A stretch of DNA of 64,000 nt from Planctomycetota bacterium. GTDB taxonomy: Bacteria; Planctomycetota; UBA1135; GCA-002686595. Under the pieces are notes generated by a model. The model did no database searches. It saw nothing but the letters and a program-made list of their open reading frames with translations, and was not told the DNA's origin. How positions within the stretch are numbered: the first letter of the stretch is position 1; each line of letters begins with the position of its first letter. Shown one piece after another: positions 14,859 to 18,924 of this stretch. The DNA lies in contig JASLMK010000023.1 of the NCBI GenBank assembly GCA_030746555.1, positions 1 to 64,000 of the forward strand, in the 5' to 3' direction. Made by a program: the position numbers and the translations under genes.

Positions 14859-15091
14859 CCTGTCCCCCCTCCGGTCGTGGTGTGCGCCGCGGGCGCGCCT
14901 GGTTCGTCTGGAAGTGCCCCGGGAGCCCGAACGGTCGACGCCCTCCGTCGACGGTCCAACCCCTCCTTGAAGGCCACCCTATATGGTGTTTCGAGACGAT
15001 CCAAGCCCAACCTGGCGCGTTTCTTTGCAAGTTCGCAACCGGCGAGCGGCCTCTCGACGCGGCCCACGACGCGCGGGATGATGGGTGTGCG

Positions 15092-16021
15092 ATGTTCAAC
15101 GACTCCCTCGGTGACGCACCGCGCATGCGGGTTCGCGTCCCCTGTTCGACCTCCAACCTCGGGCCCGGGTTCGACTGCCTCGGCCTCGCTCTCTCCCTGG
15201 AACTCGAGGTCGAACTCCATGTGCGTCCGGATCGCACTGCCCACGAGCTCGCGGAGCTCGCCGGGTTCGCCACCGACTGGCCGCTGGAGGGAAACTGCCT
15301 CCCGACGGCCTTCGACCACGTGTTCGGCGAGCTGGGTCTGCGATCTCCCGCCTGCGACTTCCGCGTGAACTCGACCATCCCCACGGCGCGCGGGCTCGGC
15401 AGCAGCGGCGCGGCCACCGCCGCCGGCCTGCTCCTGGGGGCGTCCTTCGCGCCTCAGCCCGTCGAAGTGAAGCAGCTCCTGCGCTGGGGCACCGCCCTCG
15501 AGGGGCACCCCGACAACGCGACCGCCTCCCTGCTCGGAGGCTGTACCTTGGGCGTGCCCCACGGTGGCGACCTGGCGGTGGTGCGGCCCCGTGTGCACCC
15601 TGATCTGGTCTTCCCCGTGGCCTGGCCGGCGGAACCGACCCCGACGGCCGAGGCGCGGTCGGTGCTGCCCGAGTCCGTCCCCTTCGCCGACGCGGTCGAG
15701 AATCCCCGACGCCTGGCCCTGCTGCTCGCGGGTCTGCGCGAGGGGGACCCCGAATTGTGCCGCCTGGGGATCGAGGATCGGCTCCACGCTCCCTACCGCC
15801 TGGCGCTCATCGGGGGGGCGCGAGACGCCCTGGCCGCCGCGCTAGAGGCGGGCGCTCACGCGGCGACGATCAGCGGCAGCGGCTCGGGCCTGGTCGCGAT
15901 CTGCGACGCGCACGACGGCCCCGCGGTGGCAGCGGCCCTGGCGGGGGGCCTGCAGGGCGACGGGGTCGAACAGCGCGTCCTCGCCCCCGTCTTCGGAGCG
16001 CCGCGAGTCGAGCGCCTCTGA
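15092..16021 (+). CDS. thrB: homoserine kinase
   Basis: 309 aa from ATG 15092; a second ATG at 15125 would give 298 aa and starts closer to the conserved core (MRVRVPCSTSNLGPGFDCLG). This GHMP kinase phosphorylates L-homoserine on the way to threonine in the cytosol. Landmarks are the N-terminal P.S..NLGPGFDCLGLAL, the ATP-binding IPTARGLGSSGAATAAG, the EGHPDNATASLLGG segment and the C-terminal ISGSGSGLVAI. Length is normal for the family. No other threonine-pathway gene is nearby. It converges on the enzyme-I-like gene with 10 bp between stops. Confidence 0.93.
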   Translation: MFNDSLGDAPRMRVRVPCSTSNLGPGFDCLGLALSLELEVELHVRPDRTAHELAELAGFATDWPLEGNCLPTAFDHVFGELGLRSPACDFRVNSTIPTARGLGSSGAATAAGLLLGASFAPQPVEVKQLLRWGTALEGHPDNATASLLGGCTLGVPHGGDLAVVRPRVHPDLVFPVAWPAEPTPTAEARSVLPESVPFADAVENPRRLALLLAGLREGDPELCRLGIEDRLHAPYRLALIGGARDALAAALEAGAHAATISGSGSGLVAICDAHDGPAVAAALAGGLQGDGVEQRVLAPVFGAPRVERL

Positions 16022-16031
16022 CGCGCGGCGC

Positions 16032-17816
16032 TCAGCGCCGCAGGAGGTCGAGCACCTCGTCGCGGCCGCCCGCCTCCATGGCCCGCCGCGCGAGATCGCG
16101 GGCGCGGTGTGCGTCGAGGGACTGCACGCGCTCCGCGAGCCCGGGCAGGTCCGCCGGCGCCACGCAGAACTCCTCCACGCCCAGACCGACCAGCAGCGGC
16201 AGATGGGCCGGGGACACAGCGCCCACGCCGAACATCGAGAGCGGTCGGCGCTCCCGCGCGGCGGAGCGCACGACCTCGCGCACCAGGCGCAGCATGGCCG
16301 GGTGGGCGACGTCGAAGTAGTGGTCCAGGGCGTGACCGTGCCGGTCCGCCGCCATCACGAACTGCGAGAGAGCGTCGAAGCTGACCATCAGGAAGTCCCC
16401 GGCGGCCGCCAGCTCGCTCGCCGCGAGCGCGGCGAGGGGAACCTCGATCACGGCGCCCAGCTCGAGCTCGGTGCCGAACAGTGCCCCCGCGCGGCGCAGG
16501 CGCGCGCTCTCCTCGGCCAACAGGTCGGCCACGCGCAGGAGCTCGGCCCGATCGGTCACGAAGGGCACGGCGATGCGCACCTGTCCGCTGTCCCCCGCGA
16601 CGCGCAGGCAAGCGGCGAGCTGAGCGCGCAGCACGTCCTCGCGCGCCAGGAGGGCGCGCACGCCGGCGAGGCCCAGGGCCGGGTTGGCCTCCCTGTGCTC
16701 GTGCAGGTACGCCAGCCCCAGGCCCGAGTCGGCGTGGAGCAGGCGGAAGGTCACCGCTCCTCCTTGCGCCTCCTCGATGACCGCGCGGTAGTGGGCGACG
16801 AGGGACTCGATCGAGGGAGGCTCGCTCCCGACGAAGTGCATCAGCTCTGTCCGGTAGAGTCCCACCGACCCGACGCCCACGGAGAGGGCGGAGGAGACTT
16901 CCGGCAGGTTGCCGCAGCTCGCGGTCAGGACCACCCTCGTGCCGTCGGCGCACGAGAGTTCCTCTCCCGCCCACTCGCCGATGACCGGAGGTGAGGGGTT
17001 GGCGGGCGGCGAGGTGTCGCGATACTGCGCGAGCAGGGCCTCGGTCGGCGCCATGCGCAAGACGCCCTCGCTCGCGTCGAGCAGGGCGCTCTCGCCGTCG
17101 CCCACCCGTGCGAGCAGCCCCTCGACGCCGGTGACCGTCGGGATCCCCATCGAGCGGGCGAGGATCGCCGCGTGGCTCGTGACGCCGCCGGTCTCGGTCA
17201 CGATGCCGAGCACGTGGTCGTTCTCGAGGTTGAACATGTCCACGATGGACAGCTCGCGGGCCGCGATGATGTAGTCCCGCGCACGCGACCGCTCCCGCGG
17301 CGCAGGCTCCTCCGCCCCCTCGGCGCCTCCGAGGTTGCGCAGGACTCGGATACCTATGTCGCGCAGGTCCACGGCCCGCTCTCGGAGCACGCTGTTCTCC
17401 ACGAGGCGGAAGATGCGGTCGAAGTCCGCCACGACCTTGGCGATCGCGGCCTCCAGGCTCATCTGCTCGTTGAGGATCAGGTTCTCGACGTCGGAGAGGA
17501 AGACCGTGTCCTTGAGGTAGGCGAGGTGCGTGTCGAGGATGCGCACGTGGTCGGCCGACACCTTGCCCTCCAGGTGCAGCTTCAACCCCTCGAGCTGAGC
17601 GCGCGACTCCCGCAGTGCCTCGTGGAAGCGGTTGAGCTCGCGCTCGACCGCGTCGGGGGGGACGCGCTGCGCCGCGGCCCGCTGCAGGTCCTGGTCCTTG
17701 CGATAGATCTCGCCCACCGCCAGCCCCGGTGCAACCGGCGTGCCCTCGAGGATCGCTCCTTCCTCTGCAGCGCCGCCCGCCGGGGCAGCGGCGGCGGGTG
17801 CCGGTCCCTCGCTCAT
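16032..17816 (-). CDS. PTS enzyme I homologue with degenerate PEP site
   Basis: 594 aa from ATG 17816 (a GTG 27 bp upstream is less likely). The layout is that of phosphoenolpyruvate-protein phosphotransferase: a helical HPr-binding region, the swivelling phospho-His domain with GGVTSHAAI (His215), and a C-terminal TIM-barrel. LYRTELMHF keeps the PEP-binding Arg and IEVPLAAL keeps the Glu ligand. However, the normal GTNDLxQY reads SFDALSQF, so Asn becomes Asp and the metal-binding Asp becomes Ala, and the general-acid Cys of the CGE motif is replaced (MFGVGAV). Autophosphorylation with PEP is therefore doubtful. No HPr or EII gene is present here. A regulatory relative of enzyme I or an altered donor specificity are alternatives. 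Confidence 0.85.
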   Translation of the reverse strand: MSEGPAPAAAAPAGGAAEEGAILEGTPVAPGLAVGEIYRKDQDLQRAAAQRVPPDAVERELNRFHEALRESRAQLEGLKLHLEGKVSADHVRILDTHLAYLKDTVFLSDVENLILNEQMSLEAAIAKVVADFDRIFRLVENSVLRERAVDLRDIGIRVLRNLGGAEGAEEPAPRERSRARDYIIAARELSIVDMFNLENDHVLGIVTETGGVTSHAAILARSMGIPTVTGVEGLLARVGDGESALLDASEGVLRMAPTEALLAQYRDTSPPANPSPPVIGEWAGEELSCADGTRVVLTASCGNLPEVSSALSVGVGSVGLYRTELMHFVGSEPPSIESLVAHYRAVIEEAQGGAVTFRLLHADSGLGLAYLHEHREANPALGLAGVRALLAREDVLRAQLAACLRVAGDSGQVRIAVPFVTDRAELLRVADLLAEESARLRRAGALFGTELELGAVIEVPLAALAASELAAAGDFLMVSFDALSQFVMAADRHGHALDHYFDVAHPAMLRLVREVVRSAARERRPLSMFGVGAVSPAHLPLLVGLGVEEFCVAPADLPGLAERVQSLDAHRARDLARRAMEAGGRDEVLDLLRR

Positions 17817-17892: not shown

Positions 17893-18924
17893 ATGATTCC
17901 CGCCCTCCCGCTCCTCCTCGCCGGCGCTTGCGCCCCACAGGACCCCGCGTCCCCCGCGCCCTCTCCGACTCGACCGGCTGATCTCGAGCTGCTCGAGGTC
18001 GTCAAGGTCGTCGACGGCGACACCCTGCACGTGATGCGTGACGGCGCGAAGGAGAAGCTGCGGCTGCTCTCGGTCGACACCGAGGAGAAGTTCAATCCCT
18101 CCTACCGCGGGTCGCCCACCAAACCCCAGACGGTCTACGGAGAGGAGTGCGCCGCCTGGGCGCGCGAGTTCTTCGCCGAGCGGGCTGCGGTCGAGGGGGT
18201 GATGAAGGTCGGTCTGGCCTTCCCCGCCGGCGTGGAGGAGCGCGACATCTACGGAAGACTGCTCTGCCACGTCCTGCTGCCCGACGGAACGGACTTCAAC
18301 CTGCTCCTCGTGGAGCAGGGCAGGAGTCCCTACTTCAACAAGTACGGCAACAGCAGGATCTGCCACGGGGCCTTCGTCGCGGCGCAGGCGCGCGCCCGGG
18401 AGGCCGGCCTCGGCGTCTGGAATCCAAAGACCAACGCCGCCGCCCCGGGGCGGCCGGCGGTCCGCCGGCCCTACGAGCGCCTCCTCCCCTGGTGGCAGGC
18501 GCGCGCCGATGCCATCGACGACTACAGGAAGCGGCGGGGAGAGCGGGTCGTGGCCGCCGACGACGCCGACGGCCTCGCGCGCGCGGTCGCCCTCGAGGAT
18601 CCGACCATCACGGTCTTCGGCACGCCGGACCGCTACTTCGAGGAAGCCGACGGCAGCCTGACCGTCCTGTTCCGGGCCTCCGATCGCAAGCGCGCCCTGC
18701 GCGTGCGGATCGCGGCGGATCTGCGCGAGGCCCACGCGAGCCTGGACCTCGACGGCCTCGACGACGAGTTCCGCCAGAACTACGTCTACGTGAACGGGCG
18801 CCTCGTGCAGGGCGAGCGCGGCTTCGAGCTGCCCTCCACCGGGCCCCAGGCCTGGCGCCGGGCGGGGCCCGAGCCTCGAGCGCCGGCCCCCGAGGCCGCC
18901 GGCGACACATCGCCCGGCGGCTGA
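17893..18924 (+). CDS. staphylococcal-nuclease-like lipoprotein (thermonuclease family)
   Basis: 343 aa. A short N-terminus ends in the lipobox LAGAC (Cys13), though it lacks the usual basic residues. The SNase/OB domain spans about 30-175: VVKVVDGDTLHV, LRLLSVDTEE (first catalytic Arg and acidic residues) and RDIYGRLLCHVLL (second Arg in the DxYGR motif), then LLVEQGRSPYF. A C-terminal extension (190-343) is not recognised; its ...DPTITVFGTPDRYFEEADGS part looks like an OB or beta-barrel segment. The family hydrolyses DNA and RNA at the cell surface. Divergent from the enzyme-I gene, with 76 bp between. Confidence 0.8.
   Translation: MIPALPLLLAGACAPQDPASPAPSPTRPADLELLEVVKVVDGDTLHVMRDGAKEKLRLLSVDTEEKFNPSYRGSPTKPQTVYGEECAAWAREFFAERAAVEGVMKVGLAFPAGVEERDIYGRLLCHVLLPDGTDFNLLLVEQGRSPYFNKYGNSRICHGAFVAAQARAREAGLGVWNPKTNAAAPGRPAVRRPYERLLPWWQARADAIDDYRKRRGERVVAADDADGLARAVALEDPTITVFGTPDRYFEEADGSLTVLFRASDRKRALRVRIAADLREAHASLDLDGLDDEFRQNYVYVNGRLVQGERGFELPSTGPQAWRRAGPEPRAPAPEAAGDTSPGG

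Follow-up and report, generated by a model that had tools for sequence, protein, structure and literature searches.

A conserved family of Enzyme I homologues in Planctomycetota that lacks PEP-site residues and probably acts by binding or sensing

A stretch of DNA of 64,000 nucleotides from a Planctomycetota bacterium, here called the window, holds a gene that is confirmed as a full-length homologue of PTS Enzyme I (EI) with PEP-site residues lost. Judged by its sequences, the gene belongs to an old family of EI paralogues, here called A, that occurs mainly in one Planctomycetota order. The family A protein probably no longer works as an enzyme but by binding or sensing. We give a probability of about one half to the reading that it is a pseudoenzyme of the EI type whose docking partner is HPr or an HPr-like domain, with the old PEP pocket perhaps kept as an anion sensor; the loss of PEP activity, the partner, the ligand and the regulatory output are the parts of this reading that we infer.

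Results

The open reading frame lies on the minus strand, with its ATG at 17816 and its stop at 16032, and encodes 594 amino acids. The sequence-only reading had called the product an EI homologue, and rightly so, as a Pfam scan finds all three EI domains in order (PF05524, PF00391 and PF02896) and the protein passes the threshold of the NCBIfam EI model TIGR01417 (358.3 bits, cut-off 341.7). The AlphaFold model (mean pLDDT 86, pTM 0.60) has the EI fold, and comparison of its barrel with the PEP-bound EI domain 2xz7 gives a Z score of 40.5 at 2.0 Å over 316 residues (TM 0.90, target-normalised). The features discussed below are as follows.

16032..17816, minus strand: gene of the putative EI-like pseudoenzyme of family A (ORF and translation, Pfam, NCBIfam, AlphaFold model)
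17322..17666, minus strand: EIN alpha subdomain, residues 51-165, the HPr-binding part in canonical EI
17163..17189, minus strand: GGVTSHAAI loop with His215 (E. coli H189), His codon 17172-17174, by alignment
16119..16958, minus strand: former PEP-binding barrel, EIC, residues 287-566 (PF02896; match to 2xz7)
16368..16382, minus strand: SFDAL replacing GTNDL, with Asp481 at N454 and Ala482 at D455, by alignment
16224..16232, minus strand: FGV replacing CGE, with Phe529 at the Cys502 place, by alignment
14882..16021, plus strand: neighbouring GHMP kinase gene (PF00288, PF08544), the product presumably homoserine-kinase-like
17893..18924, plus strand: neighbouring gene for a protein with a staphylococcal-nuclease-homologue domain (PF00565)

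Residue numbers refer to E. coli EI (the MG1655 protein); the dikinase-like L002 and the duplicates L003 and L030 were left out of the alignment. In the window's copy the loop GGVTSHAAI is intact and His215 aligns with H189. GTNDL has become SFDAL, in which N454 is replaced by Asp and D455 by Ala, and MCGE has become MFGV, with Phe for C502 and Val for E504. The intact loop, the Ala for the metal Asp and the loss of the Cys had been noticed from the sequence alone, in a reading that had missed that T333, D335, K340 and R358 are replaced as well, by Leu, His, Leu and Ala respectively. R296, R332, E431 and R465 are retained. We take E431 and D455 to be metal ligands in EI, and Cys502 is reportedly essential, going by the title of a 2002 paper by Garcia-Alles. 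According to one account, PEP is held by the cluster R296/R332/R358/R465 and its carboxylate contacts the backbone of N454 and D455 (PMC9856155).

Sequencing error, misalignment and chance can all be ruled out as the source of the replacements, because the core changes (C502, N454, K340 and T333) recur across 75 distinct orthologues. The orthologues of families f6 and f7 read [VIL]-D-D-L at the place of GTNDL, which anchors the alignment and fixes both positions of SFDAL without a shift. The objection that a functional Asp and Cys could lie elsewhere in the barrel holds by half at best: Asp481 stands one residue before the lost metal Asp and might bind metal, but the place of C502 holds no Cys in any readable family member.

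PF02896 has three matches in the window's genome, G000 (4.0 Mb in 137 contigs, completeness 91.33): the window gene, a canonical EI on contig C42 whose active site is complete in the alignment (family B), and a gene on C128 that we guess from its length and weak match to be dikinase-like. There is one stand-alone HPr gene (L004, C17:221-505), and there are two EIIA_2 genes, on C72 and C106. A profile search of the genome gave no match to PF02378 (EIIC), and none to the C-terminal HPr kinase model PF07475, for which the same search was also blank in B. subtilis, a bacterium that we take to have an HPr kinase. The remark that no HPr or EII gene is near holds, since the HPr and EIIA matches are on C17, C66, C72 and C106 and none is on C23, the contig of the window. 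The PTS of this genome looks regulatory, with an apparently working EI of its own, as judged from the canonical EI with a complete site, the single stand-alone HPr, the two EIIA genes and the lack of a PF02378 match. The wider genome search that had been proposed thus adds a canonical EI of its own, together with an HPr and two EIIA genes, to the picture, and with these present a regulatory paralogue is likelier than an isolated odd enzyme.

Two gene arrangements around the PTS genes can be added. The HPr gene on C17 is followed by a gene that we name PilM-like from its sequence, and the EIIA gene on C106 (L007:153-1093) adjoins an ORF resembling a ribosome hibernation factor, in an arrangement that reminds us of the rpoN-hpf-ptsN clusters of proteobacteria.

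Family A is present, whole or as pieces cut by contig ends, in 39 of 41 genomes, the window's own and others of its genus, family and order, and in reduced form in the other two, G003 and G022. Among 81 genomes of the family it is found whole or in pieces in at least 62 and reduced in seven; neither form was detected among the matches listed in 12 of the 81, so the gene is dispensable. A sample of 294 genomes from the phylum, with at most four candidates scored per genome, gave A by score and residues in at least 18 of the 22 genomes of the same order. Outside the order, where 272 genomes were sampled, residues were read at the 12 top-scoring loci, each from a different genome, and were A-type in one (G099); the rest of the matches listed were judged by score alone. 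Among the best 80 loci from named genomes 32 have A-type residues. Three of these, L168, L171 and L193, are titled just "bacterium", and the others all carry Planctomycetota, Planctomycetia, Planctomycetaceae, Planctomycetes or planctomycete in the title.

A and B are about 30% identical. In a quick tree of 77 EIs, for which no root was inferred and in which A and B were each thinned from 35 to 26 sequences and joined by 25 other EIs, one branch sets all of A off from the rest (SH-aLRT 100) and another all of B (99), so that A is also separate from the 25 others. The B-type EIs of the order (L001 and others) mostly read GG[RK][FY]SHG where GGxTSH would be expected. Within family f1 their R126 is replaced by Tyr, Phe or Trp, and their R131 in most cases by Ser, Ala or Thr. 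In f17, another Planctomycetota family, the canonical EIs of six genomes (L307, L308 and L312-L315) have RGH for TSH in the phospho-His loop.

Inspection by eye of the ORF clusters common to 21 compared neighbourhoods showed no recognisable PTS gene next to A, among the matches listed. The recurring clusters listed include a GHMP kinase, an M28 peptidase and a protein with a molybdopterin-binding domain, these names coming from the Pfam scan of the window's own genes. The cluster with the GHMP kinase, which may mix in antisense ORFs, occurs in at least 16 of the 21.

Residues were counted in 75 distinct A proteins, left after 31 near-copies had been dropped from 106; four of them have a gap or are unreadable at C502. 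The Cys is kept in 0 of the 71 readable proteins and K340 in 0 of 75, the place of N454 is Asp in 74 and position 333 is Leu in all 75. D455 is kept in 15, E504 in 27 and R358 in 22. R296 and R332 are present in every protein (75/75 each), R465 in 73 and E431 in 70, with Asp in two more, and the phospho-His is found in 67, its loop well kept in most. Over 20 pocket positions of our own choice, A proteins share an identity of 0.61 and B proteins one of 0.90. Taken together, the counts and this identity suggest that the family has given up catalysis by the known route but still has a pocket lined with arginines.

The conservation order of the canonical EI is reversed in A. In the 31 of the 41 genomes in which both genes could be aligned, mean pairwise identity in A is 0.506 for the alpha subdomain, the most conserved of the compared parts, and 0.408 for EIC, whereas the values for B are 0.352 and 0.543. 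Alpha minus EIC comes to +0.098 in A, with a bootstrap interval over genomes of 0.058 to 0.143, and to -0.191 in B, with an interval of -0.210 to -0.170. The control of 43 canonical EIs, made up of E. coli and 42 loci whose titles name no planctomycete (8 further Planctomycetota loci were left out), gave 0.316 and 0.483. The alpha subdomain is the more conserved part in 366 of 465 pairs of A, and thus not in the other 99, compared to 1 of 465 pairs of B and 11 of 903 pairs of canonical EIs. The dN/dS values between G000 and the sister species G001 are 0.166 (alpha) and 0.21 (EIC) for A, and 0.33 and 0.13 for B. EIC of A is still under purifying selection and therefore has some role. In canonical EI the alpha subdomain is the part that binds HPr (PMC5537066).

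The sequence-only reading had stressed the phospho-His, which is dispensable in family A, since it is replaced in full-length proteins that remain under selection and is missing from the reduced forms. The replacement is found in 8 of the 75 proteins, by Arg in five and by Gln in three, and amounts to two changes on the tree: Arg in five of seven genomes of genus g44 and Gln in three of four of g10. The dN/dS of these His-less genes is 0.05-0.13 (four pairs), and 0.06-0.13 for EIC.

Seven genomes in three genera have reduced N-terminal forms only. All three species of g22 encode a His-less protein of EIN alone, about 250 residues from the first homologous stretch, with a dN/dS of 0.10-0.19, and shorter N-terminal pieces are found in G003 and G077 (g3) and in G074 and G076 (g52). 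The three reduced proteins that were scanned match PF05524 alone, L161 with 23.1 bits against a cut-off of 24.4. By eye, the reduced gene in G022 and G003 is near an ORF resembling the window's GHMP kinase, and the one in G074 is flanked by ORFs resembling the window's SNase protein and peptidase.

Discussion

Beyond the one odd gene first noticed there is a whole conserved family, A, which looks from its sequences like a pseudoenzyme. It shares the three-domain architecture, the fold and, in most members, the phospho-His loop with PTS Enzyme I (PtsI, TIGR01417), but it differs in the family-wide loss of PEP-site residues, the shift of conservation to the alpha subdomain and its separate clade (SH-aLRT 100); in the window's protein Asp455, Asn454, Lys340 and Arg358 of the PEP site are gone, and so is Cys502, where Phe529 stands. 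The retained fold of the model, the selection and the catalytic residues lost throughout the family make pseudoenzyme an apt term, and that of an HPr-binding regulator is one that we infer from the conservation of the alpha subdomain.

A comparison with EI-Ntr, PEP synthase and dikinase had been suggested, and the Pfam and NCBIfam features of those groups are absent from the window's protein. PEP synthase and pyruvate phosphate dikinase have an N-terminal ATP-grasp domain; Pfam finds none here, and the scores are far under the cut-offs for those enzymes, e.g. 68.9 against 843.45. EI-Ntr (PtsP) is likewise an EI paralogue in an apparently regulatory PTS, but A has no N-terminal GAF domain and has lost its catalytic residues; the window's protein has the EI domains alone, from residue 24 (Pfam). 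An N-terminal GAF domain is ascribed to EI-Ntr in PMC2405797, where the regulatory EI group R also includes genes of Planctomycetes. Among the matches listed, with subscription journals mostly outside their scope and hence as no proof of absence, we found nothing in the literature on an EI pseudoenzyme of Planctomycetes.

We hypothesize that the lasting job of A is docking by the N-terminal helical subdomain, which best explains the trend of the losses. The window's protein would no longer autophosphorylate with PEP, and HPr, or else the HPr-like domain of a second protein, P0002, would be the natural partner on which the subdomain docks. The docking would report on HPr, or compete for it, in a regulatory PTS for which the separate canonical gene supplies the working EI. 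The old barrel, which retains the fold and the larger part of the anion pocket (R296, R332, E431 and R465), would be a ligand sensor or a dimer platform that sets the docking, and in copies that bear the His, including the window's, a phosphate passed from HPr~P to the His may be the input signal. EIC of E. coli also binds the regulator alpha-ketoglutarate (PMC8295985). Of the three roles that had been offered from the sequence, the family comparison favours a sensor or binding protein and lends no support to a new direct phosphate donor; the window's copy, where the His is intact, may run backwards from HPr~P. There are points against docking as well: phosphotransfer may still matter in the majority that keep the His (67/75), EIC is under purifying selection, nearly as strong between G000 and G001 as that on the alpha subdomain, and hence not ballast and could hold an unrecognised chemistry, and the alpha subdomain may bind something other than HPr. 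The dispensability of the gene and the 99 pairs of A that depart from the reversed order weigh against it too.

P0002 (L005:1363-2787; G000 C66:51630-53051, minus strand) has 474 amino acids and is present in 32 of the 41 genomes. Its HPr-like domain is C-terminal and carries a Ser46-like residue and the His, which is invariant among 30 aligned sequences; the N-terminal domain is helical, about 330 residues long, and belongs to no Pfam family that we found. In the model (mean pLDDT 87.6) the C-terminus compares to the HPr fold with a Z score of about 11 and the remainder to common helical bundles, and the N-terminal domain has weak helical matches (PptA, E 0.069, probability 0.91; CHAD domain, E 0.25, probability 0.44). 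All 27 members scanned against Pfam match PTS-HPr; 12 other families turn up as well, each in a single member and with E no better than 0.013. The inheritance of P0002 together with A was considered as proof of a partnership and rejected: among the matches listed P0002 occurs without a detected A in eight of nine genomes of g58 and in G064, and it was not detected in any of seven f6 and f7 genomes that carry A.

The same protein could take part in a phosphate relay, in which HPr~P would phosphorylate His215 and the phosphate would move on to another carrier, e.g. the HPr-like domain of P0002. DhaM has EIIA-Man and HPr domains fused ahead of a truncated EI-like domain (NF008478), which presumably relays phosphate likewise. 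The reduced forms of g22 are like this domain in being an EI N-terminal domain without a PEP domain of its own, but the A chain has no EIIA or HPr domain, as the Pfam scan of the window's protein confirms, and full-length A still has the barrel. The N-terminal part of the window's protein has a match to the model for DhaM that reaches 93.9 bits where the cut-off is 520 (E 1.1e-26), and a relay would also make sense of the His kept in most A proteins and of the widespread second HPr-like domain with its invariant His. It is at odds with the His-less copies that persist under selection and with the uneven distribution of P0002 and A, and we regard it as unlikely.

It is a still weaker case that A is an altered enzyme, in which the barrel would still bind a metal through E458 and D481, along with a ligand that is a phosphate or a carboxylate, and would use some other donor to phosphorylate His215. 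The nearly invariant R296, R332, R465, E431 and Asp at 454 would fit such an enzyme, and so would the purifying selection on EIC, but D455, K340, R358 and E504 vary widely, the pocket is much less uniform than that of B, and the acceptor His is replaced in eight proteins that retain EIC. A mixed dimer, where the canonical EI would use its PEP domain to phosphorylate A in trans on the His, seems improbable to us. A and B do co-occur, the former with the better conserved alpha subdomain and the latter with the complete PEP site, and EI dimerises via EIC (PMC5537066); yet all 35 B sequences compared have a His of their own, B is present without a detected A in the 12 of 81 family genomes among the matches listed, and some A copies have no His. 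That A is simply a decaying gene with no role is hard to believe in spite of its stepwise losses, reduced copies and absence from some genera, given a whole-gene dN/dS of 0.05-0.23 in full and reduced pairs (synonymous sites are near saturation in some) and its presence, whole or in pieces, in most genomes of the family.

Returning to docking, it is tempting, if speculative, to extend it to a history. Within one order a PTS enzyme may have turned into HPr-docking regulators, losing first the PEP chemistry, then the His in some lines and the whole barrel in others until a minimal docking module was left, and the barrel, where retained, would sense a metabolite via the old arginine cluster.

If the docking reading is true, we would here have an EI pseudoenzyme that serves as an antagonist or a read-out of the PTS. 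The window's gene scores above the curated cut-off of NCBI for phosphoenolpyruvate--protein phosphotransferase, and PTS activity could thus be assigned to the wrong gene in such genomes. Family A is a natural series of losses in one gene, of the proton donor, the metal ligand, the phospho-His and the PEP domain, and it could reveal roles of EI beyond phosphotransfer in bacteria where the role of the PTS is poorly known.
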